From the NCBI GenBank assembly GCA_937948985.1, contig CALFAK010000019.1, positions 1 through 37,600 on the forward strand: a stretch of 37,600 nucleotides of DNA, read 5' to 3'. The stretch is from an uncultured Neomegalonema sp. Its GTDB lineage: Bacteria; Pseudomonadota; Alphaproteobacteria; Rhodobacterales; Rhodobacteraceae. Of this stretch, positions 22,804-37,600 are shown in pieces. Within the stretch, counting starts at the first letter, position 1, and every line of letters starts with the position of its first letter. Below the pieces are notes generated by a model that worked only from the letters and a program-made list of their open reading frames with translations, ran no database searches and was not told the origin of the DNA. Both the position numbers and the translations under genes were made by a program.

Positions 22804-23670
22804 CTACGCTCCCAACAATCCCACAATCTCATCCGGCGAGCGGGCAATGCGCGCCCCCGCCGCCTCCAAAATCGCACCTTTTTGCTCAATCGAGCCGGAC
22901 CCCAACGTCGCCACCGTCCCCGCATGGCCCATCCTCCGGTCCTCCGGCGCATGACGCCCCACCAGCAGCGCGACCACGGGCTTTGCAAAGCTCTCGGCGG
23001 CCAGATAATCCGCCGCCGCCTCTTCTTCAACGCCGCCCAATTCCCCGATCAGAACGACGCTCTGTGTCTGCGGATCATCGTTGAACAACGCCAGACACTC
23101 GGCAAACCCGATCCCGTGAATCGGGTCACCGCCGATACCCACAGTCGTCGATTGTCCCAGCCCCGCCGCGTTGGTCAGCGCCACAATCTCGGATGTCAGC
23201 GAGGCCGACCGCGCCACAATCCCCACCGAACCGGGCTTGGCATCCACCGTCTGCATCACGCCGATCTTGCATGCCCCCGGCGTCAGCACCCCTTGCGAGT
23301 TCGGCCCGACCAGCCGCGTGTCCGATCCGGCCAGCGCCGCTTTCACGCGCAGCATATCCAGCGTCGGTATCCGCTCGGTCACGCAGACGATGGTGCCGAT
23401 CTCCGCCTCAATCGCCTCAATCATCGCGTCGGCGGCATAGGCGGCGGGCACCATGATCATGCTCGCATCCGCCCCCGTTTCGGCCACCGCATCGCGGGCT
23501 GTGTCGAAAACCGGCAAACCCAGATGCTGCGAGCCGCCCTTACCTGGTCGCACCCCGCCCACATAGGTTCCGGGCGCATAACGCATCGCCAGTTCGGCAT
23601 AGAACGTGCCGGACCGTCCCGTCATCCCTTGCACGATTACGCGCGTATTACCGTCGATCAGAATGCCCAT
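22804..23670 (-). CDS. SucD-like acyl-CoA ligase alpha subunit (ADP-forming)
   Basis: The 288-residue protein is a homologue of succinyl-CoA synthetase alpha. It has the CoA-binding Rossmann region (RVIVQGMTGRSGTFYAELAM, VGPNSQGVLTPG), GQSTTVGIGGDPIHG, IGELGGVEEEAA and the phosphorylated histidine His249 in RRMGHAGTVATLG, matching E. coli His246. The segment usually read as SRTGTLTYE is ARSASLTSE here. It overlaps the SucC-like gene (TGATG), so the pair is coupled. Divergence from housekeeping SucD and the oxalate-gene neighbourhood argue for another acid substrate; oxalate is a candidate, malate (MtkB-like) an alternative. Both are inference. Confidence 0.85.
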   Translation of the reverse strand: MGILIDGNTRVIVQGMTGRSGTFYAELAMRYAPGTYVGGVRPGKGGSQHLGLPVFDTARDAVAETGADASMIMVPAAYAADAMIEAIEAEIGTIVCVTERIPTLDMLRVKAALAGSDTRLVGPNSQGVLTPGACKIGVMQTVDAKPGSVGIVARSASLTSEIVALTNAAGLGQSTTVGIGGDPIHGIGFAECLALFNDDPQTQSVVLIGELGGVEEEAAADYLAAESFAKPVVALLVGRHAPEDRRMGHAGTVATLGSGSIEQKGAILEAAGARIARSPDEIVGLLGA

Positions 23671-24842
23671 CACACAGCCCCTTTCGACAGTTTCACCGCC
23701 AGCGTCACCGCATCACTCATGCTGGTGGCGTGTTGGTGAGGCAGGTCTTTCTTATCGATCATACGCCGCGCCCAATCCGCGTTATGCCCCGCCACGCGGA
23801 ACACAATCGGCGGCTTGCGTTCACTGCGTTGATAAGCGAACCCCAGCGAGCCGACCACCAGATCACACGCCGTCATCCCGCCCCCGTGGATATTCACCAA
23901 CAGCACATTCACCGCCGGGTCTTCGATTAATAACCCTATCCCCCGCGCGATCTGAAAACTCGTCGCCGTGGTGCGGATATCCATGAAATTCGCGGGCGCA
24001 CCGCCGCCCTCAACCACCATATCATATGTCGCCAGCCCCAGCCCCGCACCATTCGTGACCAGTCCGATATCGCCATCCATTTTCACGAAGTTGATCTCAT
24101 TGCGCTGTGCGATCAGCTCACTAGGGTCCAGATGCAGATTATGCGACAGCGCCTCAAATTCGGGATGCCGGAACAGCGCATTATCATCCAGCACCATCTT
24201 CGCATCAATCGCCACCGCGCTCCCGTCATCCATCAAGGCCAGCGGATTAATCTCGATCAGGCGCGCGTCGGTGTCGAAATACGCTTTCACCAATGCCCCG
24301 ATCACGTCACAGACGGCAGCCACATGGGCCTCGCCAACCCCGACATTTCCCAAAAACGCCGCCAGCGCCGCCGGATTATGCGCCCCATCCGGTTCCAGCG
24401 CATATTTCTGCACCAGCTGCGGCGCGTCGCGGGCCTTGTCCTCAAAATCCACGCCGCCCGCGATGGATGCCATAAGCGTCGGCCGCGCGTTGCGTTGATC
24501 GATCAACAGCGACAGATACAGTGACGCATCAAAATGCAGCGCCTCTTCGATATACACACTTCGGACCTGCTCCCCCTTCGGCCCGGTTTGCGCGGTCACC
24601 AGCGTTTCCCCGATCAGCGCATCCGTTGCGGCCCCGGCCTCGGCCGCCCCTTTCGCAAACTTGATCCCCCCGGCCAGCCCCCGCCCTCCGGCACGGATCA
24701 GCGCTTTGACCACCAGTTTGTCCGCCGCCAGCATCGCCGCAACACCACCGGCTGCGATCCCGTTATCCGCAACGCCGCCACGGGGCAGTGCGATCCCGAA
24801 ACCGCCTAATATCTTCTTCGCTTCCGCCTCTTGAAGAAACAT
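23670..24842 (-). CDS. SucC-like acyl-CoA ligase beta subunit (ADP-forming)
   Basis: The 390-residue protein has the SucC order: ATP-grasp domain (VVKALIRAGGRGLAGGIKFA, then RLIEINPLALMDDG), and ligase domain with NGAGLGLATYDMV (264 onward). Two loops that sit near the acid-substrate site in SucC are changed: DVGGGA is DIRTTA here (288-293) and NIFGGIVRCD is NIHGGGMTACD (317-327). It is therefore a paralogue with a probably different substrate. It starts about 110 bases from the divergent gntR gene and shares its control region. The pair would form acyl-CoA with ATP or GTP and CoA, or make ATP in reverse. Confidence 0.87.
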   Translation of the reverse strand: MFLQEAEAKKILGGFGIALPRGGVADNGIAAGGVAAMLAADKLVVKALIRAGGRGLAGGIKFAKGAAEAGAATDALIGETLVTAQTGPKGEQVRSVYIEEALHFDASLYLSLLIDQRNARPTLMASIAGGVDFEDKARDAPQLVQKYALEPDGAHNPAALAAFLGNVGVGEAHVAAVCDVIGALVKAYFDTDARLIEINPLALMDDGSAVAIDAKMVLDDNALFRHPEFEALSHNLHLDPSELIAQRNEINFVKMDGDIGLVTNGAGLGLATYDMVVEGGGAPANFMDIRTTATSFQIARGIGLLIEDPAVNVLLVNIHGGGMTACDLVVGSLGFAYQRSERKPPIVFRVAGHNADWARRMIDKKDLPHQHATSMSDAVTLAVKLSKGAV

Positions 24843-24949: not shown

Positions 24950-25663
24950 ATGGCGAGCATCTTAAATCTCAGACCTGTTGCCGGAAGTTTCAGCCTTGGT
25001 GATCACATCTATGATGTGCTGCGCGAGGCAATTCTCAACATGAAAGTCTATGAGGCGGAGACTGATCTGCGCCTTGATGAGCGCGCTCTGTCCGATGCTT
25101 TGAAGATTTCACGCACGCCGGTCCGTGAGGCGTTGGTGCGCCTTGAACAAGACGGCTTTGTCGAGGTCCGCCCCCGCAAAGGTGTCTTTGTGTTGCGCAA
25201 ATCCCTCAGCGAAATCATGGAGATGATTATCGTCTGGGCCGCGCTCGAAAGCATGGCCGCGCGCTTGGTCACCGAACATGCCACAGACGGGGAAATTGCC
25301 TCCCTGCGCGATCTGGCCGCCCGCTACAGCAGCGATGATGCAAAGGCGCGGATTGAGGAATATTCCGAGGCGAACATCGCCTTTCACCAGCGTATTCTCG
25401 AACTCTCGAGATGCACCATGCTCAAAACTATCGCCGATGGCCTTTTCCTGCACATGCGCGCCGTGCGCCGAAAGGCGATGGCCGAGGAAGATCGCTCATC
25501 GCGTTCTGTCGTCGAGCACATGAGCATTATCGAGGCGCTCGAAAGCCGCGATGCCGACCGTGCCGCCGCTCAAGTGCGCCAGCACACGATGAAATTACAC
25601 GACCATGTGCGTGATACATGGACTGATCTCGACCAACCGGAAACCAAAAACGCAGCGGGATAA
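24950..25663 (+). CDS. GntR-family (FCD) transcriptional regulator
   Basis: The 237-residue protein has an N-terminal winged helix-turn-helix (LDERALSDALKISRTPVREA, LVRLEQDGFVEVRPRKGVFV) and an all-helical FCD effector domain with histidines in FHQRILELSR, VVEHMSIIEALESRD and QVRQHTMKLHDHV that can hold a metal and an organic acid. The ATG at 24950 is chosen because the upstream frame from 24881 runs through the operator and is unlike the family. It is the first gene of the oxalate block, 21 bases before oxc, and divergent from the SucCD-like pair. Its ligand is probably an acid or acyl-CoA of this pathway. Confidence 0.9.
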   Translation: MASILNLRPVAGSFSLGDHIYDVLREAILNMKVYEAETDLRLDERALSDALKISRTPVREALVRLEQDGFVEVRPRKGVFVLRKSLSEIMEMIIVWAALESMAARLVTEHATDGEIASLRDLAARYSSDDAKARIEEYSEANIAFHQRILELSRCTMLKTIADGLFLHMRAVRRKAMAEEDRSSRSVVEHMSIIEALESRDADRAAAQVRQHTMKLHDHVRDTWTDLDQPETKNAAG

Positions 25664-25684
25664 ACCGCGCGGGGAGGGCTAAAA

Positions 25685-27442
25685 ATGTCTGCGACAGCTA
25701 AGGTTTTAGACAGTGATACGGCTGAAAAGACGGATGGCTTTCACCTCCTGATCGACGCATTGAAAATTAATGGCATCGAGACGATTTATAACGTCCCCGG
25801 CATTCCGATCACAGATCTTGGCCGTTACGCACAGGCGCAGGGAATGCGGGTGATCTCGTTCCGGCACGAACAACATGCGGGTTATGCCGCCTCGGTGGCG
25901 GGTTACCTCACAAAGATGCCGGGCGTCTGCATGACGGTTTCCGCGCCGGGCTTCCTGAATGGTCTAACGGCGGTTGCGAACGCGACAACGAATTGCTGGC
26001 CGATGATCCTTATTTCTGGCTCCTCCGAGCGTGAAATCGTCGATCTGGCTCAAGGTGATTACGAGGAGATGGACCAACTCGCCATCGCCCGCCCGTTCTG
26101 TAAGGCGGCCTACCGCCTGACCTATGCGCAAGACATCGGCATCGCTGTCGCCCGCGCCATCCGCAGTGCTGTCAGTGGCCGTCCGGGCGGCGTGTACCTC
26201 GACATTCCCGGCGCAATGCTCGGGCAGGTGATGGACGCGGTTGAGGGTCAAAAAACACTTGTGAAGGTAATCGACCCGGCCCCGAAAATGCGCCCTTCGG
26301 AAGATGCGGTCGCCCGTGCCATCGAAGTCATGAAAGGTGCAAAACGGCCCCTTATCGTCATCGGTAAAGGCGCGGCCTATGACCAATCGGATGACCTGAT
26401 CCGGCAACTTGTCGAAAAATCCGGCTACCCGTTCCTGCCCATGTCTATGGCCAAAGGCATCCTGCCCGACACCCATCCCCAATGCGCTTCCGCCGCGCGT
26501 TCGCTTGTGCTGAAAGACTCTGACGTGGTGATCATGATGGGCGCGCGGATCAACTGGCTTCTCAGTCATGGTAAAGGCAAGCAATGGGGCGAGCCGGGCG
26601 GCAAACGCTTCGTTCAGATGGATATCGAGCCTGAGGAAATGGACTCCAACGTCGAAATCGCCGCGCCTTTGGTGGGCGATGTGGGTTCTTGCACATCGGC
26701 CTTGCTTGAGGCGATGGAGGGGGAGGGGATCGCCCCACCAAAAGACTGGCTCGACCAGGTTCACACGAAAGCCTCCGCCAATATGCAGAAAATGTCCACT
26801 CGGCTGCAAAACAACAATGACCCGATGGATTATCACTCGGCCCTCGGTGTTCTCAAGCAAGCGATCAACGACAACCCTGATACAATTCTCGTGAACGAAG
26901 GCGCCAACACGCTCGATCTTGCCCGTTCCATCGTCAATATCCACAAACCGCGTCACCGCATTGATGTCGGTACATGGGGTGTCATGGGCATCGGCATGGG
27001 CGCGGCAATCGCCGCCGCCGTCGAGACGGGCAAGCAAGTGCTTGCGGTTGAGGGGGACAGTGCCTTTGGCTTCTGCGGCATGGAGGTCGAGACGATCTGC
27101 CGGTATAATCTGCCGGTGTGCATCGTCGTCTTCAATAACAATGGCATCTATCGCGGCGATGGCGAAAACTGGGGCGGTGGCGATGATCCGGCCACGACTG
27201 TTTTTGTGCAGGATGCCCGTTATGACATGATGATGGAAGCATTCGGCGGCGTTGGCGCTTGGGTCAAAAACCCGGATGAGCTTAAACAGGCCGTGCATGA
27301 GGCTTTTGCCAGTGGTAAACCAACCCTCATCAATGCCGCGATTGACCCCGCTGCGGGTAAAGAAAGTGGCAATATCGGCAACCTGAATCCACAATCAGTG
27401 GTCGCGCAAGCGCGCTATCCGCAGGCGGCGGCGCAGAAGTAA
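25685..27442 (+). CDS. oxc: Oxalyl-CoA decarboxylase
   Basis: The 585-residue thiamine-diphosphate enzyme splits oxalyl-CoA into formyl-CoA and CO2. It closely follows Oxalobacter formigenes and E. coli Oxc: [39 protein letters not shown] with the ThDP-activating Glu62, [40 protein letters not shown] and the ThDP-metal motif [19 protein letters not shown] ending in NNNGIYRGD. The C-terminus ([12 protein letters not shown]) resembles the E. coli enzyme. A GGGGAGG site precedes the ATG. It works with Frc, encoded 22 bases downstream. Confidence 0.97.
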
Positions 27443-27464
27443 CAATCGGACGGATACAAGCACT

Positions 27465-28739
27465 ATGAAAGCTCTCGAAGGCGTCAAAATCCTCGACTTC
27501 ACCCATGTTCAGTCAGGGCCGACCTGCACGCAATTGCTGGCATGGTTCGGCGCGGATGTCATTAAGGTGGAGCGACCCGGCGTTGGTGATGCGACCCGCA
27601 AGCAGCTTCAGGATGTGCCCGGTGCGGACAGCCTCTATTTTACGATGCTCAATCACAACAAGCGTTCCATTGAACTCAACCCGAAGACTGAAGAGGGCAA
27701 GAAAGTTCTCACGCGTCTCGTTGAGGAATGCGACGTGTTGGTCGAAAACTTCGCCCCCGGCGCGCTCGACCGGATGGGATTCTCGTGGGAGAATATCCAG
27801 AAGATCAACCCGCGCATGATTATGGCCTCGGTCAAAGGCTTCGGTCCGGGCAAGTACGAAGACTGCAAAGTCTATGAGAACGTCGCTCAATGTGCGGGTG
27901 GTTCCGCGTCAACAACGGGCTTCCTTGATGGTCCGCCTCTTGTTACGGGCGCACAGATCGGCGACAGCGGCACGGGCCTTCACCTCGCGCTTGGCATCGT
28001 CACGGCCCTGTTCCACCGTGAGAAGTCGGGCAAGGGCCAAAAAGTTCTTGCGGCAATGCAGGATGGCGTCCTCAATCTCTCCCGCGTCAAGCTGCGCGAC
28101 CAACAACGCCTCGCGGCCGGTCCGCTGAAAGAATATTCGCAATTCGGCGAGGGCATCCCCTTTGGTGAGGCAACACCCCGCGCGGGCAACGATTCTGGCG
28201 GCGGTCAACCGGGGCGCATCCTCAAATGCAAGGGCTGGGAGACCGACCCGAACGCCTACACCTATTTCATCACCCAAGCCGCCGTGTGGGGCAGCGTATG
28301 TGATGTGATCGGAAAACCCGAATGGAAAGAGGCCCCCGGCTACGCAACCCCGCCGGAGCGCCTTGATAAGCTGAACGAAATCTTCGGTGCGATTGAAGAA
28401 TGGACCATGACCAAAGACAAATTTGAGGTCATGGACATCTGCAACCCCCTCAACATCCCCGTCGGTCCTATCCTGTCTATGAAGGAAATCGCCGAGGATG
28501 AAGGTTTGCGCGCCACCGGAACGATTGTCGAGTGCGATCACCCCGAACGCGGGCGTTATGTCTCCGTCGGCTGCCCCGTCAAACTCAGCGACAGCAGCGT
28601 CGAAGTCGAACGTTCACCGCTGTTGGGCGAGCACTCTGAGGAAATCCTGCGCGACGTGCTGGGTTACTCAGAAGCCGACATCGCCCGCATCGCCGAAAGC
28701 GGCGCGGTCGGTGAGATCAAGAAGCAAGCGGCGGAGTAA
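27465..28739 (+). CDS. frc: Formyl-CoA:oxalate CoA-transferase
   Basis: The 424-residue class III CoA-transferase moves CoA from formyl-CoA to oxalate, giving oxalyl-CoA for Oxc and releasing formate. It opens [20 protein letters not shown] (Gln16, matching Gln17 of O. formigenes Frc) and has the catalytic aspartate Asp167 in [12 protein letters not shown] (Asp169 in O. formigenes), the KVYENVAQ tyrosine (Tyr137) and a glycine-rich loop ([10 protein letters not shown]). Length is as expected (about 416-428). It is followed two bases later by the Uma2 gene. Confidence 0.97.
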
Positions 28740-28741
28740 AT

Positions 28742-29329
28742 ATGGGACAGGCGCTCCGCAACCCTGGTTACTTCACCGTCGATGACTACCTTGCGCATGA
28801 GCAGCGCACAGGCGAGCGGTGCGAGTACGTCAATGGCGTTATCTATGCCATGACCGGGGGAACGGATCGCCACAACCTGATCACCGGAAATGTCTTTTTC
28901 GCTCTGCGCGGACAGATGAAATCGCCCTGTCAGGTGTTTCAAGCGGACATGAAGGTCAGGGTTCGGACAGATATAGGCGAGGCCCGCTACTATCCCGATG
29001 TGTTCGCTGGATGCGACGATACGGATCGTGATCGGCTTTTCCGCGAAAACCCGTGTGTGATCGTTGAAGTGCTATCGCCTTCGACCGAGCCAAACGACCG
29101 CCTTATAAAGTTCGAGCACTATCGCCTGATGACGACCCTCGATCACTACATCCTCGTCGCGCAGGACGTGCCGCAGGTCGAAGTCTTCGCAAGGGACAAA
29201 GGCTGGAAGCCTGAAATTTTGTCTTGGGGCGATGCCGTAAATGTATGCGGTGGTCGGGCGAAGCTGACGGTTGACGATATCTACGAAAATATCCCGTTCA
29301 CGGGACTGAAACCGGGGGATTTTGGATGA
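28742..29329 (+). CDS. Uma2-family (DUF820) PD-(D/E)xK nuclease-like protein
   Basis: The 195-residue protein has the Uma2 layout: DDYLAHEQRTGERCEYVNGV (Glu28), RYYPDVFAGCDD (Asp86), the catalytic-type core VIVEVLSPSTEPND (Glu109) and LIKFEHYR (Lys123). All residues of the predicted nuclease site are kept, so it may be active. Its start lies two bases after the frc stop and its stop overlaps the next gene (ATGA), so it is locked into the metabolic operon by coupling on both sides. Uma2 proteins are common in cyanobacteria and Deinococcus-Thermus and are poorly understood; no role in oxalate use is known to me. Confidence 0.88.
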   Translation: MGQALRNPGYFTVDDYLAHEQRTGERCEYVNGVIYAMTGGTDRHNLITGNVFFALRGQMKSPCQVFQADMKVRVRTDIGEARYYPDVFAGCDDTDRDRLFRENPCVIVEVLSPSTEPNDRLIKFEHYRLMTTLDHYILVAQDVPQVEVFARDKGWKPEILSWGDAVNVCGGRAKLTVDDIYENIPFTGLKPGDFG

Positions 29330-30243
29330 AAATCATCGTGATGGGACAACAGGCTTTCGGTAAAGACGCGCTGGCGAAGATTCTCGAAGCGGGCGTCGAT
29401 GATGTCGTGGCCGTCTACTGCGAACCGGATCGTGACGGCAAACCCGTCGATCCGATCAAGGAGTTTGCGCTCGCCCAAAACCTGCCCGTTCAACAACCGG
29501 CCAATTTCAAAGACCGGGAAACCCTGGACACACTGGCCTCATATGATGCCGATCTGATGGTCATGGCCTTCGTCAATGTGTTTGTACCGGAGGCGGCGCG
29601 CGATACCCCCAAGCTCGGGTCAATCTGCTTTCACCCCTCACTTCTGCCTCTGCATCGCGGGCCGAGTGCGGTTAACTGGCCGATCATTATGGGGGCTGAG
29701 AAGTCCGGCTACTCATGGTTCTACCCCACAGACGGCCTTGATGAGGGCGACAGCCTGTTGCAATGGGAATGCCCCATCGGACCGGACGACACAGTTATTA
29801 ATCTCTACTTCAAGAAAATCTACCCCTCCGCCATCGACTCGGTCCTCACCGTCTGTGATCTCTTCCGCAACGGCACCCCGCCCCGCATCGTACCGGACGA
29901 GGCGCAAGCGACCTACGAGCGCCGCTGTACCAAAAACCATGCCCGCATCGATTGGCATAAGCCCGTCAAGCATGTCTACGACCTGATCCGTGGCACCAAT
30001 CCCGCGCCGGGGGCATGGACAATACTCAACGGCGAAGAACTCGGCATTTTCGACTGCGCCCGCGAGTCAGGTGACGGTGTTTCGGGCAAAGTCGTTTCCG
30101 TGACAGAAAACGGCGTCACTGTGCAGTGCGTCGGTGGCCGTATCCTGTTGAAAAGGGTGAGACCCAAAGGCGGTGAGAAACAGCCTGCGGCGGACTGGGC
30201 TGCCTCAGCGGGTGTCACAACTGGCACTGTTCTAGGCGTGTGA
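29326..30243 (+). CDS. Stand-alone formyltransferase, homologue of 10-formyl-THF hydrolase domain
   Basis: The 305-residue protein has Formyl_trans_N (1-200) and Formyl_trans_C domains and follows the hydrolase domain of 10-formyltetrahydrofolate dehydrogenase (ALDH1L1) more closely than methionyl-tRNA formyltransferase: GSICFHPSLLPLHRGPSAVN, TDGLDEGDSLLQWECPI and INLYFKKIYPSAI. His103 and Asp139 match ALDH1L1 His106 and Asp142 at identical spacing, and Asn84 completes the formyltransferase triad. No aldehyde dehydrogenase domain follows. Between oxc/frc and the formate-THF ligase gene it may transfer formyl from formyl-CoA to tetrahydrofolate, or hydrolyse formyl-THF; the first is inference. 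Confidence 0.88.
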   Translation: MKIIVMGQQAFGKDALAKILEAGVDDVVAVYCEPDRDGKPVDPIKEFALAQNLPVQQPANFKDRETLDTLASYDADLMVMAFVNVFVPEAARDTPKLGSICFHPSLLPLHRGPSAVNWPIIMGAEKSGYSWFYPTDGLDEGDSLLQWECPIGPDDTVINLYFKKIYPSAIDSVLTVCDLFRNGTPPRIVPDEAQATYERRCTKNHARIDWHKPVKHVYDLIRGTNPAPGAWTILNGEELGIFDCARESGDGVSGKVVSVTENGVTVQCVGGRILLKRVRPKGGEKQPAADWAASAGVTTGTVLGV

Positions 30244-30257
30244 AGAGATTAACCAAA

Positions 30258-30282
30258 CCACGAGAGCGAATTACGCTCGTGG
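30258..30282 (+). other. Intercistronic hairpin before fhs
   Basis: CCACG and CGTGG, extended by AGCG with CGCT after a two-base bulge, form a stem around AATTA in the 54-base gap between the formyltransferase and fhs. A-rich sequence rather than a U-tract follows, so it is more likely a processing or stability element than a terminator. Confidence 0.55.
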
Positions 30283-30297
30283 AAAAGGGGTTTAGGA

Positions 30298-31965
30298 ATG
30301 TCGGATATCGAAATTGCCCGTAAGGCAAACAAAAAACCAATTCAAGAAATCGGTGCCAAGCTGGGCATCCCAAGTGAGCATTTGCTCCCTTATGGCCACG
30401 ATAAGGCCAAGGTTTCCGCTGATTTTATCAAGTCAAAGGCGAATGATGCCGACGGTAATCTGATCCTTGTTACCGCCATCAACCCCACACCTGCGGGCGA
30501 AGGCAAAACCACGACGACGGTGGGCCTTGGTGACGGCCTCAACAAAATCGGCAAGAACGCTTGCGTATGTATCCGCGAAGCCTCCCTCGGGCCAAACTTC
30601 GGTATGAAGGGCGGCGCGGCGGGCGGTGGCTATGCTCAGGTTGTTCCAATGGAGGAAATGAACCTCCACTTCACGGGTGACTTCCACGCCATCACCTCGG
30701 CGCACAACCTGTGCTCGGCCATGCTCGACAACCACATTTACTGGGGTAACGAGCAAGAGATTGACGTGCGCCGCGTTGCATGGCGCCGGGTTCTCGACAT
30801 GAACGACCGTGCCCTGCGCCAAATCACCTGCTCGCTCGGCGGCGTGGCAAACGGCTTCCCGCGTGAAGCCGGGTTCGACATTACCGTGGCTTCCGAAGTC
30901 ATGGCGATCCTTTGCCTCGCAAGCGATCTCGACGATCTGCAAAAGCGCCTTGGCGACATGATCGTCGCGTATCGCCGCGACCGCACCCCTGTTTACTGCC
31001 GCGACATCAAAGCGGACGGCGCGATGACCGTTCTGCTCAAAGACGCGATGCAGCCGAACATCGTTCAAACGCTTGAGAACAACCCGGCCTTCGTCCACGG
31101 CGGCCCGTTCGCGAACATCGCGCACGGCTGTAACTCGGTCGTGGCAACGAAAACCGCGCTGAAACTGGCTGATTACGTGGTCACGGAAGCGGGTTTTGGT
31201 GCTGACCTTGGTGCTGAGAAATTCCTTAACATTAAATGCCGCAAAGCGGGCCTAAAGCCGAAAGCGGTTGTCCTCGTTGCCACCGTGCGTGCGATGAAGA
31301 TGAATGGCGGCGTTGCCAAAGCTGATCTGGGCACCGAAAACCCTGATGCGGTTAAAAACGGCTGTGCGAACCTTGGCCGTCATATCGAAAATCTCGGCAA
31401 GTTCGGCGTTCCTGTCGTTGTCGCAATCAACCACTTCGTCACCGATACGGATGCCGAAGTCCAAGCTGTCAAAGACTACGTCGCATCCCAAGGCACAGAG
31501 GCGATCCTCTGTAAACACTGGGCACATGGTGGTGCGGGCACAGAAGACCTCGCAAACAAAGTCGTTGAGATCGTCGAAAGCGGCAAAGCCAACTACGCGC
31601 CGCTTTACCCGGATGACATGGGCCTCGCCGATAAAGTCGAAGCCATTGCCAAGGGCATTTATCGCGCTGAGAGCGTGACGATGGACAAGAAAATCCTCGA
31701 TCAGCTGAAAGCATGGGAAGATCAGGGCTACGGCAATTTGCCTGTTTGTATGGCGAAAACCCAGTACAGCTTCTCGACCGACCCGAACGAGCGCGGCGCG
31801 CCAACGGGCTTCGATATTCCGGTCCGTGAAGTGCGTCTGTCGGCGGGTGCCGGTTTCGTTGTCGCGATCTGTGGTGAGATCATGACAATGCCGGGTCTGC
31901 CGCGTGTGCCATCGGCGGAGAGCATTATGCTCGACGGCGACGGTAACGTCCAAGGTCTGTTCTAA
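30298..31965 (+). CDS. fhs: Formate-tetrahydrofolate ligase
   Basis: The 555-residue protein makes 10-formyl-THF from formate, ATP and THF, or ATP in reverse. The nucleotide-binding motif [11 protein letters not shown] begins at residue 64; other family blocks are [67 protein letters not shown] and the C-terminal [18 protein letters not shown]. Length is normal. It is the folate-side entry of the oxalate/formate locus and preceded by an AGGA site. Confidence 0.97.
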
Positions 31966-31977
31966 AAATACGATCTG

Positions 31978-32001
31978 CCGCCCCGGATAATTTCGGGGCG
32001 G
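31978..32001 (+). other. Perfect GC-rich hairpin between fhs and usp
   Basis: CCGCCCCG (31978-31985) and CGGGGCGG (31994-32001) pair perfectly around GATAATTT, with possible G-U and A-U pairs extending the stem. No T-run follows, so it may act as a stability element or leaky stop that sets different levels for fhs and the transporter genes. Confidence 0.65.
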
Positions 32002-32070
32002 TAACCGACAAAAGCAGAGGGCGGCAAACGCTCCAAGAATAAAGGAAATATCTCGGGGGAGTTAACGCAT

Positions 32071-32925
32071 ATGGCGCTACGCACGATCACGCTGCCTGTT
32101 CGCGGTGATGGCAAGGGCAATAATGTCCTCGCTCATGCCTCCGTGCTGGCTAAGCGCTATAATGCACACATCACCGTGCTTCACTGCCGCGCGCGCCCGA
32201 ATGATATGATGCCATTCGGTGTTCCGATCCCCCGTATGATGCGTGACCAGCTCATAGAATCCGCCACCAAACTTGCGGATGAAGAAGAACAGGCGCTGCA
32301 TAGTGAATTCAGTTCTTTAATTGAAACCATGCAAATCGGCGAAAGCACCCCCGTCAACGGTCGTGCTTCAGCTTCATGGCAAGAGGCGGCAGGCCGTCAA
32401 ATCGATGTTCTCAAACATCATGGCCGGCTTGCGGATCTGATTTGCGTCGCAAAGCCTGACCGGGACCGCAATCTTGGGGCAAACACGCTAAAAGCCGCTC
32501 TTTTTGCAAGTGGTCGTCCTGTTTTGATGTGCCCGCCACGGGAAGAAATTCCTGAGACTTTGGGGCAGCATGTTTCGATTGGCTGGAACGGCTCTATCGA
32601 ATCCGCCCGTGCCGTTGCGCTCTCAATGCCTCTGATCGAAGGGGCGGATAAAGTTACGATTTTGTCGGCTGGCGAGGAAGTTCACGGTGCGACCTGTGAA
32701 GATCTGATCGCCTATCTGGCGCTTGCCGGCGTTGATGCCGCGCTGGAGCGTTTTGACGCCAAGGGAAGCATAGGGCGCGCATTGCTGGAGCGCACGGTTT
32801 CCGCAGGTGCGGATATGCTGATCATGGGCGCATATGGCGATAGCCATGAGCGTGAAACTGTCTTCGGTGGCAACACACAAACCGTGGTCGATCAAGCGAT
32901 GGTGCCTGTCGTGCTTGTCCATTGA
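32071..32925 (+). CDS. Tandem universal stress protein (UspA family)
   Basis: The 284-residue protein contains two Usp domains, about 1-155 and 155-284. The second holds the ATP-binding loop pattern in MLIMGAYGDSHERETVFGGN; the first is more divergent. A GGGGGAG site lies ten bases before the ATG. It sits between fhs and the TctCBA transporter; Usp proteins are often linked to tripartite transporters in this group, and a sensing or tuning role is inferred only from that. Confidence 0.88.
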   Translation: MALRTITLPVRGDGKGNNVLAHASVLAKRYNAHITVLHCRARPNDMMPFGVPIPRMMRDQLIESATKLADEEEQALHSEFSSLIETMQIGESTPVNGRASASWQEAAGRQIDVLKHHGRLADLICVAKPDRDRNLGANTLKAALFASGRPVLMCPPREEIPETLGQHVSIGWNGSIESARAVALSMPLIEGADKVTILSAGEEVHGATCEDLIAYLALAGVDAALERFDAKGSIGRALLERTVSAGADMLIMGAYGDSHERETVFGGNTQTVVDQAMVPVVLVH

Positions 32926-32959
32926 TGCGCGTGCGCTAGATCATACGAAATTTTGTTGC

Positions 32960-32994
32960 GCGTGGAGCGCTCTGGCTAGAGAATGGTTCCACGC
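32960..32994 (+). other. Hairpin between usp and tctC
   Basis: GCGTGGA (32960-32966) and TCCACGC (32988-32994) pair perfectly, with CTCT/AGAG able to pair inside. AAAACG follows, so it is not a classic terminator. It could mark mRNA processing between the stress-protein and transporter genes. Confidence 0.5.
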
Positions 32995-33074
32995 AAAACG
33001 AAATCATAAGTCGGGACTAACCCGGCGGTAAAGATAAGTGCTCTTATGGGAGCGCATAGCAAAGGAGAAAACGA

Positions 33075-34049
33075 ATGAATCTTGTGAAAAAGCTGGTGCT
33101 CGGCGCCACGGCTCTGGGTATGGTGGCAACCGCCACTGCCGCAGTGGCCTTTGAACCTTCCAAGCCTGTGGACTTCGTCATCATGGCCGGTAAAGGCGGT
33201 GGCGCGGATAAAATGGCGCGCCTGATGCAATCCATTGTCGAGAAAGAAGGGCTGGCCGACAAGCCGCTGGTCCCGACCAACAAATCAGGTGGTTCCGGTG
33301 CGGAAGCGCTGACCTACATGAAAGGCGTTAACGACCCTGATCACACGATCATGGTAACGCTGAACTCGTTCTTCACAACGCCGCTGCGTCAGCCGGGCTT
33401 GAAGGTCGACTCGATGGCATTCGCCCCCGTTGGCCGCATGGCGGAAGACACATTCCTCCTTTGGGTCCATAAGGATGAGGGCATCAGCACGTTCCAGGAG
33501 TTTCTGGCAGAGGCTGGAAAGCGCGGCAACAAATGGGTCATGGGCGGCACGGGTAAAAACTCTGAAGACAACATCGTCACGGATCACCTGAACAAAGCCT
33601 TCGGTCTTGATATCAAGTACATCCCCTACAAAGGCGGCGGTGCGGTTGCGAAAGACCTGGCTGGTAAGCAAATCCAATCCTCGGTGAACAACCCGTCTGA
33701 AGCGCTCGGCTTCTATGAAAGCGGCGATGTGATCCCATTGGTGGCCTTCACCAACGAACGTCTGCCACTATTCCCTGAAGTCCCGACCTTGAATGAAATC
33801 GGCATCGGTGAGCCATTTGCTTACTTCATGCAGCGCGCTGTGGTCGGTGCGCCCGGTATGTCTGATGAGGCACAGGCTTATTACACGGAACTTTTCACCA
33901 AGGTTTACGCTTCTGACGACTGGCAGAAGTACAAGAAGTCGAAATCGCTGATGGGTGATTTCATTTCCGGTAGCGATCTTGAAGACTATTGGGCCACACA
34001 AATCGAACGCCACGAGAAAATCCTCAAAGCGTCCGGCGCAATCAAGTAA
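33075..34049 (+). CDS. tctC: Tripartite tricarboxylate transporter substrate-binding protein
   Basis: The 324-residue periplasmic protein of the TctC/Bug family has a signal peptide (residues 1-25, ending AAVA before FEPSKPV) and the two-lobed ligand-binding fold: VDFVIMAGKGGGADKMAR, NKSGGSGAEALTYM, GTGKNSEDNIVTDHL, YIPYKGGGAVAKDLAG and VPTLNEIG. It delivers substrate to TctAB encoded downstream. The oxalate operon context suggests oxalate or another small di-acid, but TctC ligands cannot be read from sequence. GGAG precedes the ATG. Confidence 0.92.
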   Translation: MNLVKKLVLGATALGMVATATAAVAFEPSKPVDFVIMAGKGGGADKMARLMQSIVEKEGLADKPLVPTNKSGGSGAEALTYMKGVNDPDHTIMVTLNSFFTTPLRQPGLKVDSMAFAPVGRMAEDTFLLWVHKDEGISTFQEFLAEAGKRGNKWVMGGTGKNSEDNIVTDHLNKAFGLDIKYIPYKGGGAVAKDLAGKQIQSSVNNPSEALGFYESGDVIPLVAFTNERLPLFPEVPTLNEIGIGEPFAYFMQRAVVGAPGMSDEAQAYYTELFTKVYASDDWQKYKKSKSLMGDFISGSDLEDYWATQIERHEKILKASGAIK

Positions 34050-34168
34050 TTGCGCTTTCCGGGCGGCTGGTGCGCAACCGCTGTCCGGAAATCTTTACGA
34101 AAATTAAAATAAAATGCGCCCCGCAACGCCGGGGCACATGATATCTTTGTCAATTTGTGAGGCCTGAC

Positions 34169-34792
34169 ATGCGCCGCGCCGAGATCATAACCGCCTTCCT
34201 CCTCGCACTCTTCTCCGCCTATCTGATGTGGAAAAGCGGGGAGGGGCCTGAATGGGATACCGAGTATGTCCACTGGGCCAACACGGGTATCAACATTGAC
34301 GGTTCCGGTCCGGGCAAGGGTTTCTGGCCCTTCTACCTCGCGCTGGGCATGTTCATTTCCTGCATCTGGATCATCATCAACGCCTTCCGCCGTCTATCTC
34401 CGCCTTCGCAATCCGAAGAACCGTTTATGGATGGCTACGCGAAGAAAATGCTGTTGTTCGTTGGGGGCGGTTTGATCGGATTTCTTATCTTGATCGACCT
34501 GATAAGCATGTACGCGGCGATCGCTGTTTTCATGTTCTATTACATGATGTTCTTGGGCCGCCATCCGCTGAAACTATCCATTGTGACCAGCCTCGTGGTC
34601 CCGTTCTGGCTCTACCTTTTCTTCGATATCGTGATGACCAAAGTTCAGCCTAAAGGGCTGCGCTGGATTGAGGACGCGATTTACAATCCCGCCGGTGCGT
34701 TCTTCCGCGATCAATCTCTTCTAACCATCGTGTTGTGTTTTGCGGTTACGGGTGCGGTGCTCGCAATCACAGCCCGCGCGTCCCGGCATTAG
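34169..34792 (+). CDS. tctB: Tripartite tricarboxylate transporter small membrane subunit
   Basis: The 207-residue membrane protein has four hydrophobic segments: near the N-terminus (EIITAFLLALFSAYLMW), about 60-80 (FWPFYLALGMFISCIWIIIN), a central pair (MLLFVGGGLIGFLILIDLIS and following) and a C-terminal helix, as TctB usually shows. The ATG at 34169 is chosen because GTGAGG precedes it at six bases; the GTG at 34157 is part of that site. It ends nine bases before tctA. Confidence 0.88.
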   Translation: MRRAEIITAFLLALFSAYLMWKSGEGPEWDTEYVHWANTGINIDGSGPGKGFWPFYLALGMFISCIWIIINAFRRLSPPSQSEEPFMDGYAKKMLLFVGGGLIGFLILIDLISMYAAIAVFMFYYMMFLGRHPLKLSIVTSLVVPFWLYLFFDIVMTKVQPKGLRWIEDAIYNPAGAFFRDQSLLTIVLCFAVTGAVLAITARASRH

Positions 34793-34801
34793 GAGCGGAT
34801 C

Positions 34802-36463
34802 ATGGATATTTTTGCACAGTTCTTTGATGTTCTGCCCGCGTTGCAACAGGGTATTTGGGTGGCGGTACAGCCGCATAACCTCGCCTTGGCGGTCATCGGC
34901 GTTATCGTCGGATTGTTTGTCGGCGCGCTGCCGGGGCTTGGCTCCGTCAATGGTGTCGCGATTCTGCTGCCCTTTACCTTCGTCATTAATGAAGCGACAC
35001 CCGATCCGGCGTCGCCGATGATCTTCCTCGCGGCGATTTATTACGGCGCGATGTACGGGGGCGCGATTTCATCTATCACGCTCGGCATTCCGGGCGCTTC
35101 CACGGCGGTGGCGACCACGTTTGACGGGCGGCCAATGGCCCTGCAAGGCAATGCCGACCGTGCCCTTGTCACCGCTGCGATTGCGTCTTTCGTTGGCGGC
35201 ACGATCGCAACTTTGTTCTTCACGGTCTTCGCGCCTGCGCTCTCTTCTGTAGCGCTGGATTTCGGCAACCCTGAGATTTTCGCGTTGATGTTGCTCGCCT
35301 TTGCGACGTTCATCGGTTTGGGCGGCGATGATATTCCCAAAACGATGTTCTCTATTTTCTTCGGCCTGCTGCTCGCGACAGTCGGTTTTGATACAATCTC
35401 CGGAGAGCCGCGCCTGATCTTTTTCAATGAGCGCGAACAAACCGCCGTTCTTGAGGCGCTCGGCTCAACTGATGCGGCCTCCAGCGTTCCAATCTTCAAT
35501 TCTGTCGGATGGTTCAGCCGGGGCATTCAATTCCTCGTATTGGCCATCGGCGTTTACGGCATAGGCGAGATGCTCTGGACCATCAACGAGTCGCGTTACA
35601 AAGTTACGATGACCGAAACCAAGATCAGTGCTTCGCGGATCATGCGCGGTATCGTCGGCATGAAAGACGCGTGGAAGGGAACCGCCATTGGCTCCCTGCT
35701 CGGTTTCTTTGTCGGTATCTTGCCCGCAGCGGGGGCAACGCCCGGTTCGCTGATGTCTTACGGCGTTTCCAAGATGACCTCGCGCGATCCCAAAAGCTAT
35801 GGTCAGGGCAACCCGGATGGCGTCGCCGCACCTGAGGCCGCCAATAATTCGGCCTCAACGGGCGCAATGCTGCCCATGATGACACTTGGCATCCCCGGTT
35901 CCCCCACCACAGCAGTGCTTCTCGCGGGCATGGTCATCTGGGGACTGGAACCGGGACCGCGTTTGTTTGAGGATCGCCCTGAATTCGTGTGGCCGCTGAT
36001 TGGTTCGTTTTACATCTCGAATATCGTCGCCGTTCTGGTGAATCTCGCGTTCATTCCGCTGTTTCTTGCGGTCTTGCGGATGCCTTTCACGATCCTTGCG
36101 CCTGTGATTTTCGTACTCTCGATCATCGGAACCTACGCCGCCTATGACAACATGTATGACGTGTGGCTGATGGTGCTGTTCGGGCTGGGCGCGTATATGT
36201 TGCGCATCCTTGATTACCCGCTGGCCCCTGCGGTTCTGGCCGTCGTTCTTGGTGGAACGGCAGAACAGAAATTACGCCAATCCCTGTTGCTGTCAGATGG
36301 CGATTTCGCGATTTTCTACAGCCCGTTCTTTGACCGCGATGGCAAGGGTCAGGAATGGTGGATTGCCCCGATCACAACATGGATCGCGGTTATCTTGATA
36401 GCCCTGCCGATTGTCGTCTGGGGGATTCGTAAAATGCGCGGACAGACTGCCGCAGATGTCTAG
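34802..36463 (+). CDS. tctA: Tripartite tricarboxylate transporter large membrane subunit
   Basis: The 553-residue polytopic protein is the transport channel subunit. Family motifs are GALPGLGSVNGVAILLPFTF near residue 40, GAISSITLGIPGASTAVATT, GILPAAGATPGSLMSYGVSK and MMTLGIPGSPTTAVLLAGM. It is longer than the usual 500 or so residues, with a hydrophilic C-terminal insertion before the last helix. The stop codon TAG at 36461 coincides with the TA target duplication of the IS630 remnant; the uninserted site would also read TAG, so the protein end is unchanged. Confidence 0.93.
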   Translation: MDIFAQFFDVLPALQQGIWVAVQPHNLALAVIGVIVGLFVGALPGLGSVNGVAILLPFTFVINEATPDPASPMIFLAAIYYGAMYGGAISSITLGIPGASTAVATTFDGRPMALQGNADRALVTAAIASFVGGTIATLFFTVFAPALSSVALDFGNPEIFALMLLAFATFIGLGGDDIPKTMFSIFFGLLLATVGFDTISGEPRLIFFNEREQTAVLEALGSTDAASSVPIFNSVGWFSRGIQFLVLAIGVYGIGEMLWTINESRYKVTMTETKISASRIMRGIVGMKDAWKGTAIGSLLGFFVGILPAAGATPGSLMSYGVSKMTSRDPKSYGQGNPDGVAAPEAANNSASTGAMLPMMTLGIPGSPTTAVLLAGMVIWGLEPGPRLFEDRPEFVWPLIGSFYISNIVAVLVNLAFIPLFLAVLRMPFTILAPVIFVLSIIGTYAAYDNMYDVWLMVLFGLGAYMLRILDYPLAPAVLAVVLGGTAEQKLRQSLLLSDGDFAIFYSPFFDRDGKGQEWWIAPITTWIAVILIALPIVVWGIRKMRGQTAADV

Positions 36464-37138: not shown

Positions 37139-37600
37139 TCAGTGTTTGTCGTCGGTTCCGGTCATGCCGCCTGCGTCTGCCATCATGTCGCCAGCGGATG
37201 AACCGCTTGCGCCCGATGCGCCGCCTGCGCCGCCAGCAGCACCGCCGCCAGATGCACCACTGATCTGCGAGATCATTTGGGTCAGCTGTTGGATCAGCTC
37301 TTGAAGCTGGCCGAGGATCTCAGTCATAGCCTGCATCATTGGATCGCTGCTACCAGCAGCGTCGGATCCTGCAGCACCTTCAGCGCCACCAGCACCTTCA
37401 GCTCCACAATCCTCACCCATTGATTGCTCAGCGCCGTCGGCTGCGCCAGCATCACCAGCCGCGCCAGCGTTACCGCCAGCTGCACCGGCATCACCAGCCG
37501 CGCCAGCGTTACCGCCAGCTGCGCCAGCATCACCAGCCGCGCCAGCGTTGCCGCCAGCTGCACCGGCATCACCAGCCGCGCCAGCGTTACCGCCAGCTGC
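37139..37600 (-). CDS. Gly/Ala-rich tandem-repeat protein, partial (N-terminus outside window)
   Basis: The minus frame is open from the window end to the TGA at 37139, giving at least 153 residues. The upstream part is tandem 13-residue repeats of the type GGNAGAAGDAGAA. The C-terminal 93 residues hold a Gly/Ala-rich linker, one amphipathic helix (MMQAMTEILGQLQELIQQLT and following MISQISGAS) and a second Gly/Ala/Ser-rich stretch with a short Asp-rich tail ending TDDKH. The internal ATG at 37420 is probably not the start, because the frame stays open through the repeats. No function can be assigned; a surface or secreted structural protein is possible. Confidence 0.75.
   Translation of the reverse strand, partial: AAGGNAGAAGDAGAAGGNAGAAGDAGAAGGNAGAAGDAGAAGGNAGAAGDAGAADGAEQSMGEDCGAEGAGGAEGAAGSDAAGSSDPMMQAMTEILGQLQELIQQLTQMISQISGASGGGAAGGAGGASGASGSSAGDMMADAGGMTGTDDKH
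37442..37597 (-). repeat. Four tandem 39-bp coding repeats
   Basis: Units lie at 37442-37480, 37481-37519, 37520-37558 and 37559-37597, differing by only a few bases (for example GCCAGC versus ACCGGC near the start and GTTACC versus GTTGCC); the array continues beyond the window edge. The 39-base period equals 13 codons, so copy number can change without a frameshift. Confidence 0.9.

Follow-up and report, generated by a model that had tools for sequence, protein, structure and literature searches.

A free-standing formyltransferase of oxalate gene clusters as a probable formyl-CoA:tetrahydrofolate formyltransferase

We analyzed a 37,600-nucleotide stretch of DNA from an uncultured Neomegalonema sp. 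(the window), which spans contig C19 in full; the source genome comprises 3.4 Mb and is 94.67% complete. On its + strand the window carries the gene order gntR-oxc-frc-(Uma2)-FT-fhs-usp-tctCBA, in which oxc, frc, and fhs encode oxalyl-CoA decarboxylase (Oxc), formyl-CoA:oxalate CoA-transferase (Frc), and formate-tetrahydrofolate (THF) ligase (Fhs), and FT is a gene for a free-standing formyltransferase. From its comparative genomics, FT probably catalyzes formyl-CoA + THF <=> 10-formyl-THF + CoA, with net flow toward folate on oxalate. We also judge it reasonably likely that FT is a widespread proteobacterial formyl-CoA:THF formyltransferase that would need no ATP and would give oxalate carbon a route bypassing free formate. 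An earlier note, made from the letters of this DNA alone, had proposed transfer from formyl-CoA to THF; this is now the best-supported reading. The residues of FT, its predicted fold, its family, and its gene neighborhood are observed here, and from these and its relatives we infer substrate, direction, mechanism, and physiological role. The reading frames and families of the operon are as that note had listed them, and the assignments of Oxc, Frc, and Fhs exceed curated cut-offs by wide margins.

25685-27442, + strand: oxc, oxalyl-CoA decarboxylase, the formyl-CoA producer (TIGR03254, 957.5 bits; cut-off 739.4)
27465-28739, + strand: frc, formyl-CoA:oxalate CoA-transferase (TIGR03253, 696.2 bits; cut-off 504.2)
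29326-30243, + strand: FT, proposed formyl-CoA:THF formyltransferase, 305 residues (Formyl_trans_N/C)
30298-31965, + strand: fhs, formate-THF ligase, an optional operon member (NF010030, 933.8 bits; cut-off 652)

By the textbook route, formate-level carbon enters the folate pool through formate-THF ligase, at a cost of one ATP. If FT acts as proposed, folate would be loaded without ATP straight from a CoA thioester, which would explain how oxalate carbon reaches serine-type assimilation without free formate and would provide an oxalate route to serine, purines, and formyl-methionine, also in lineages in which no Fhs was detected. Many oxalate-eating bacteria have a gene resembling that of a translation enzyme beside their oxalate enzymes, and the more likely reading is that its product moves the formyl group of formyl-CoA onto folate. 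This suggests a ready-made part for synthetic one-carbon pathways that produce formyl-CoA; in the CORE cycle, as outlined in the pertinent passages of PMC11961710, formyl-CoA is converted to formate and formate-THF ligase then loads THF.

Linkage of FT to enzymes that make formyl-CoA

We searched with FT alone, blind to gene context, and counted neighbors in the closest 80 of 135 FT relatives (72-91% identity), each count omitting those loci without enough flanking sequence. The 80 loci are mostly labelled Alphaproteobacteria, with some Gammaproteobacteria or Granulosicoccaceae and one Oceanobacillus. Where 700 bases or more of upstream sequence are available (75 loci), the gene immediately before FT is frc in 74. 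Of the loci whose upstream flank reaches 4 kb or more (68), 62 have oxc in the position before frc and five have the gene of a lyase-like thiamine enzyme there; in the remaining one (L093), oxc is displaced to the opposite strand.

The same association is found across genomes. In an order-level sample of 292 genomes, with FT counted at an identity of at least 49%, FT occurs in eight and Oxc in 11, such that oxc is present in 8/8 FT genomes versus 3/284 others (Fisher p 1.4e-13). Nine of the 17 order genomes with a match to FT (32-36% identity) were dropped as methionyl-tRNA formyltransferase (Fmt), all of them (L010-L018) having Asn in the alignment column of FT Cys101 discussed below. In a phylum-level sample of 398 genomes, FT was counted at 317 bits or more, with all other matches scoring at most 206 bits; of the latter, two were inspected, G407 through its locus and G016 through its motif, and both are Fmt-like. 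FT is present in 10 of these genomes, the source genome included, and Oxc in nine of the 10. Outside the window we read seven phylum loci, a set that excludes those of G503 and G586, and found frc directly upstream of FT in five (L141, L143, L145, L146, and L147). The near-invariant position of frc and the strength of the FT-oxc association place this linkage far from chance. The earlier note had held that a gene not conserved beside oxc and frc in relatives would speak against its idea, and had called for a comparison of co-occurrence across genomes; on both counts the gene proved to keep this company.

The tenth FT genome of the phylum sample (G574) has no Oxc; its lyase-like gene, which shares 76% identity with the one in L042, adjoins a frc whose product scores 681.9 bits. 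The lyase-like enzyme is a thiamine enzyme ≈25% identical to Oxc, and its nearest solved relative is a 2-hydroxyacyl-CoA lyase. Enzymes of this latter kind are known to make formyl-CoA, and the lyase-like enzyme may replace Oxc as its source. It is encoded at the following positions.

L019:6841-8592: lyase-like gene
L024:5989-7860: lyase-like gene
L042:6830-8578: lyase-like gene
L046:6827-8575: lyase-like gene
L048:6885-8624: lyase-like gene
C45:50205-51923 (G574): lyase-like gene beside frc

What FT tracks is thus not Oxc itself but the known or probable producers of formyl-CoA, and the partner of FT is probably formyl-CoA. Oxalate loci with FT form a subtype of their own, which in most cases includes the tripartite transporter genes tctCBA; of the 54 loci whose downstream flank extends to 6.5 kb or more, 51 have tctA downstream of FT. 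As a separate observation, the frc and FT of L019 are 98% and 91% identical to those of the window, yet Oxc is replaced there, and a single gene therefore seems to have been swapped.

Family and active-site residues of FT

FT harbors the Pfam domains Formyl_trans_N/C only, and its 305 residues include no carrier-protein, aldehyde dehydrogenase, or enoyl-CoA-hydratase-like domain. Its nearest solved relative by sequence is the N-domain of FDH/ALDH1L1 (1s3i, phmmer E 6.2e-52), in line with the earlier description of FT as a free-standing homologue of the 10-formyl-THF hydrolase domain. PurU is absent from the four NCBIfam matches of FT, and the genome has no match to TIGR00655 at E 1e-60. A search with Foldseek using the AlphaFold2 model of FT (mean predicted local distance difference test score 94.9) places the FDH N-domain first by E-value (4qpd, E 8.8e-36, TM 0.87), followed by Fmt, ArnA, and HypX. 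A maximum-likelihood tree of 31 rows, unrooted and built without HypX as too divergent, splits FT and the FDH N-domain from Fmt with branch support 100/100; long branches were flagged, that of FDH among them, and given its length the exact place of FDH beside FT is unsure.

The relationship with FDH bears directly on the proposed chemistry. In its native reaction the FDH N-domain takes the formyl group from 10-formyl-THF and loads it onto the 4'-phosphopantetheine thiol that a carrier domain bears; its hydrolytic activity in vitro requires added thiol at high concentration, according to the sections of PMC8748788 and PMC4388273 that treat this domain. The idea of formyl transfer is strengthened by this, since the "hydrolase domain" of FDH is itself a folate-to-thiol formyltransferase. 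FT resembles the FDH N-domain in sequence, predicted fold, a His/Ser/Asp set, equivalents of Phe89, Arg114, and Tyr200, and lack of the catalytic Asn; in contrast to FDH, it is free-standing, with neither the carrier-protein nor the aldehyde dehydrogenase domain, has Cys or Gln in place of Ile104, and would have free CoA as partner and a net flow toward folate.

We examined conservation in 84 close rows, in which at least two loci are counted twice (L004/L035 and L005/L038), and in 24 family rows hand-picked from those available to span the FT family. His103, Ser105, and Asp139, which correspond to FDH His106, Ser108, and Asp142, are kept in 84/84 and 24/24 rows, respectively. Phe89, Arg114, and Tyr200 of FDH align with FT Phe86 (24/24 family rows), Arg111 (24/24), and Tyr197 (23/24), and mutation of any of the three in FDH is described as reducing activity (PMC4388273). 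The column of the superfamily catalytic Asn, at position -2 relative to the His, is occupied in FT by Cys101; this column holds Cys in 16 and Gln in eight of the 24 family rows, Asn in 6/6 Fmt rows, Ile104 in FDH, Val in HypX, and Asn in one PurU (G020). The catalytic Asn is used by Fmt, ArnA, and GART in the account given in PMC4388273. As judged from the alignment, FT and both of its thiol-acting relatives, FDH and HypX, are without this Asn of the amine formyltransferases.

Three other residues were considered and set aside. The earlier note had listed His103, Asp139, and Asn84 as the retained residues of the formyltransferase; the first two are indeed kept throughout, whereas Asn84 lies outside the catalytic-Asn column and is found in 84/84 close but only 13/24 family rows. 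Cys101 as a nucleophile, in a ping-pong reaction via formyl-Cys, is compatible with the 84/84 close rows that have Cys, yet an essential role is unlikely because Gln replaces it in the eight family rows noted above, including rows beside frc. Trp118 (Trp in FT, FDH, and HypX; Arg in six Fmt rows) was not used as a mark of thiol enzymes, since ArnA presumably also has Trp in this column. A second FT paralogue, 42% identical, is encoded downstream of fhs in one locus (L050:5475-6434) and has Gln in the Cys101 column.

FT shares with Fmt the two-domain Formyl_trans_N/C architecture and, in one annotated record, a label: the FT orthologue on plasmid pLA6_002 (CP031587) is annotated fmt_2, methionyl-tRNA formyltransferase, which our reading, if true, corrects. 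Common superfamily membership, this label, and a model that superposes well on Fmt are what would favor FT as an enzyme that formylates an amine (initiator tRNA, a sugar nucleotide, or another) with 10-formyl-THF. We consider this barely credible. FT scores 129.2 bits against the Fmt model TIGR00460, below the cut-off of 201.5, and the same genome encodes a separate Fmt-like protein that carries both the catalytic Asn and an RPAGRGKK loop, neither of which FT has. Loops of the latter type have a role in tRNA binding by Fmt; the basic loop is absent from 24/24 FT rows, and RPAGRG is present in 6/6 Fmt rows. No sugar-nucleotide gene is found among the ten genes of the operon.

Proposed route, direction of transfer, and competing readings

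In the proposed route, oxalate would be taken up, probably through TctCBA, and Frc and Oxc together would convert it to formyl-CoA and CO2. FT would then pass the formyl group to THF and free CoA, and 10-formyl-THF would continue to FolD, serine hydroxymethyltransferase, and, in some genomes, a serine cycle; Fhs, where present, would equilibrate 10-formyl-THF with formate and ATP. By analogy, FT would run the reaction of the FDH N-domain backwards: N10 of THF would meet the formyl carbon of the thioester between Asp139 and His103, the latter oriented by Ser105. On textbook grounds formyl-CoA is expected to be the higher-energy formyl donor, and flow toward folate is thus expected while formyl-CoA is plentiful.

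The closest precedent for this reaction is the HypX half-reaction, in which the N-domain moves formyl from 10-formyl-THF to CoA, as described in the portions of PMC12134894 and PMC6802093 that concern it. FT and the HypX/HoxX N-domain have the same fold and weak sequence similarity, and HypX exchanges formyl between folate and CoA, as FT would; in HypX, however, formyl-CoA is decarbonylated to CO in a fused enoyl-CoA-hydratase-like domain, which FT lacks. The oxalate systems of Oxalobacter, E. coli (yfdWU), and Cupriavidus (frc-oxc) have Frc and Oxc in common with the window, which adds a folate enzyme beside the formyl-CoA step. The passages on oxalate catabolism in PMC12188714, PMC7486775, and PMC3720670 have formyl-CoA serving as CoA donor or being converted to formate, and do not name folate as a direct acceptor. 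Our literature searches, with most subscription journals outside their coverage, found no description of a formyl-CoA:THF formyltransferase in oxalate metabolism.

Fhs appears as an optional partner in this scheme. In 46 of 64 loci fhs is the next gene after FT, and in 18 it is missing from that position; the window fhs encodes the only Fhs found in its own genome. Fhs is present somewhere in 24/24 of a set made up of 17 genomes with fhs-less FT loci and seven further FT genomes, and in 268 of the 292 order genomes overall. Among the nine phylum FT genomes searched, four carry Fhs and none was found in five (E 1e-30); these five represent two genera (four genomes in one), three are single-contig, and all are listed as 100% complete. 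In G666 and G453, from the genus with four such genomes, FT directly follows oxc and two frc genes. Fhs cannot be a requirement for FT, given that fhs is adjacent in only the 46 loci and that no Fhs was found in five of the ten phylum FT genomes; in those five, FT can be neither half of a futile cycle nor part of an ATP maker that uses Fhs in reverse, and formyl-CoA remains the constant partner. Two Fhs genes, one of them adjoining FT, are present in each of G117, G133, and G198, which indicates that Fhs, where present, can be dedicated to the pathway.

These counts also bear on the possibility that FT and reverse Fhs work together mainly to conserve energy (formyl-CoA -> 10-formyl-THF; 10-formyl-THF + ADP + Pi -> formate + ATP). 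The earlier note had offered such coupling in general terms, and in that form it does not stand. The frequent adjacency of fhs and the second, FT-adjoining Fhs gene of three genomes are in its favor; it is contradicted by the 18 loci with no fhs beside FT and by the five genomes with no Fhs found, and pathway arithmetic gives zero net gain with an ATP-dependent oxalate ligase and no spare formyl-CoA with Frc alone. We therefore regard ATP recovery as a very improbable main function of FT, and as an accessory one at best, at most optional.

Several observations weigh against net transfer from formyl-CoA to folate. By TM-score, the FT model is slightly nearer to Fmt (0.88-0.93) than to FDH (0.83-0.87), and fold alone is not decisive because E-value favors one and TM-score the other. 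The CoA contacts of HypX (Arg131, Gln15, and Ser12) have no clearly conserved counterparts in FT; near the Arg131 column, Lys163 is found in 15/24 and Lys164 in 19/24 family rows, and Fmt is also basic at Lys164. As for linkage, one close locus (L066) has an opposite-strand SucC-like gene and no frc before FT, and in two of the seven distant loci FT stands apart from frc and oxc: in L142 (G574) it adjoins fhs, frc and the lyase-like gene being located on a different contig, and in L144 (G652) it is beside neither frc nor fhs, with Oxc encoded elsewhere in the genome. The lyase-like enzyme of L042 scores higher as acetolactate synthase (428.6 bits; cut-off 587) than as lyase (355.5; cut-off 600), both below the NCBIfam cut-offs. 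Three oxc-positive order genomes lack FT and also have no fhs at their oxalate locus, showing that oxalate can be used without FT. Serine-cycle neighbors are rare, with glyA2 in 4/99 and ppc in 1/99 of the sequences scanned (the window and L001-L098, many of them short). Frc consumes one formyl-CoA per oxalate, and withdrawal of formyl groups requires another CoA donor. Finally, the documented direction of the relatives of FT is from folate to thiol, the pattern of PurU occurrence described below is also predicted by a deformylase, and the HypX precedent itself runs opposite to the direction proposed here.

HypX shows that transfer from folate to CoA is possible, and the main rival reading has FT running in this direction, converting 10-formyl-THF (derived from Fhs or serine) to formyl-CoA that primes or refills the Frc/Oxc cycle after hydrolytic losses. 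Catalytic amounts would suffice, such that neither a stoichiometric problem nor a futile cycle arises, and the direction agrees with that documented for HypX and FDH, with forward Fhs, and with an fhs adjacent to FT in most loci. The five FT genomes with no Fhs found imply, however, that an ATP-driven version is not general, although serine-derived 10-formyl-THF could serve. Acetyl-CoA or succinyl-CoA can donate CoA to oxalate as well (PMC12188714, in its treatment of such donors), and serine-cycle neighbors, where present, fit withdrawal of formyl groups better. On balance we consider priming of Frc by FT unlikely.

A further alternative concerns PurU, an enzyme established to act on 10-formyl-THF. 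FT could be a 10-formyl-THF deformylase that yields formate and THF, replaces PurU, and balances the one-carbon pools of purine and methionine metabolism during oxalate use. In the order sample, PurU was found in 0/8 FT genomes, 101/284 others, and 3/3 oxc-positive genomes without FT, and the isolated FDH N-domain hydrolyzes 10-formyl-THF in vitro with thiols (reported in the same sections of PMC8748788 and PMC4388273). Absence of PurU needs no FT, however, since 183 of the 284 FT-negative genomes also lack it; the association over 292 genomes has a Fisher p of 0.054 and is perhaps a clade effect. FT differs from PurU in having no match to the PurU model and in missing the catalytic Asn, which the PurU of G020 keeps. 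A general deformylase would have no need to adjoin frc or to track oxc, and would oppose the neighboring Fhs in the 46 loci with fhs beside FT. We regard this reading as quite unlikely. In a related observation, 24 genomes of the order sample are without Fhs and 17 of the 20 listed carry PurU; the two enzymes seem to complement each other, as though formate could be liberated from 10-formyl-THF by either one.

Fate of the formyl group, supply of CoA, and the remaining genes

For the preferred reading, transfer from formyl-CoA to folate, the surroundings of the operon on plasmid pLA6_002 are instructive. There the operon lies within ≈50 kb of serine-cycle and folate genes; the neighbors include formate dehydrogenases, ppdK, folA, a dihydroneopterin aldolase gene, ppc, two SucCD-like pairs, a ketopantoate-reductase-like gene, glyA2, hprA, folD_2, and a methylene-THF-reductase-like gene. 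With the product annotated "soluble hydrogenase 42 kDa subunit" read as serine-glyoxylate aminotransferase, these surroundings comprise most of a serine cycle together with folate enzymes. Ketopantoate-reductase-like and aminotransferase (Sga-like) genes follow tctA in L110, and in L146 frc-FT is accompanied by a ppc-like gene, by mtkAB-like genes, and by a gene that we interpret as CitE/Mcl-like. Two kinds of ketopantoate-reductase-like gene recur near the loci (L067:2108-3160 and L042:15811-16833), and that of pLA6_002 is matched in 29/65 loci; these may encode oxalyl-CoA reductases or glyoxylate dehydrogenases. For Cupriavidus, oxidation of glyoxylate to oxalyl-CoA has been proposed (PMC7486775, in the part on glyoxylate).

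Known routes by which another thioester donates CoA to oxalate employ acetyl-CoA or succinyl-CoA (PMC12188714), and an acetyl-CoA subgroup is distinguished among the transferases in the relevant part of PMC3720670. Two frc paralogues precede FT in L145 (5184-8359) and L147 (4796-7450), in genomes in which no Fhs was found, and the first of each pair may be an acetyl-CoA-dependent priming enzyme. In the window, the SucCD-like pair divergent from the operon is, by conjecture, a candidate supplier of the extra CoA thioester, with oxalate, malate, and succinate as candidate substrates. Both subunits fall short of curated cut-offs, and the closer of the two pLA6_002 copies to the window SucC-like protein is sucC_3 (48%). 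A SucC- or SucD-like gene is found upstream of FT in 27 of the 50 loci with at least 9 kb upstream; some loci, like pLA6_002, have two different pairs. These and the remaining genes of the operon are as follows.

22804-23673, - strand: SucD-like CoA ligase alpha subunit, divergent from the operon (NF004230, 335.8 bits; cut-off 336)
23670-24842, - strand: SucC-like CoA ligase beta subunit, partner of the SucD-like subunit (below cut-off as succinate ligase, 349.1/370, and as malate ligase, 292.9/604)
24950-25663, + strand: GntR/FCD transcriptional regulator, first gene of the operon (Pfam GntR and FCD, match from 24953)
28742-29329, + strand: Uma2-family gene between frc and FT (PF05685, E 3.9e-30)
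32071-32925, + strand: usp, universal stress protein-like gene (PF00582), recurrent in many loci
33075-34049, + strand: TctC, solute receptor of the tripartite tricarboxylate transporter (PF03401)
34157-34792, + strand: TctB, small membrane subunit (PF07331)
34802-36463, + strand: TctA, large membrane subunit (PF01970)

The GntR/FCD gene holds the same position in most relatives with sufficient flank, and oxalate uptake is the probable function of TctC and its transporter. From gntR to tctA the intergenic gaps are 21, 22, 2, -4, 54, 105, 149, 107, and 9 bases, in keeping with the nearly continuous operon of the earlier note, which had made no mention of the Uma2-family gene between frc and FT. 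A recognizable Uma2 gene is present in only one of the 80 relative loci (L024), where it lies between the lyase-like gene and frc; because it is absent elsewhere and sits in a different gap there, we take the window copy to be a local insertion that is probably not part of the system. At the end of the contig, an open frame on the - strand (37139-37600) encodes a protein rich in Gly and Ala that contains GAAG[N/D]A repeats.

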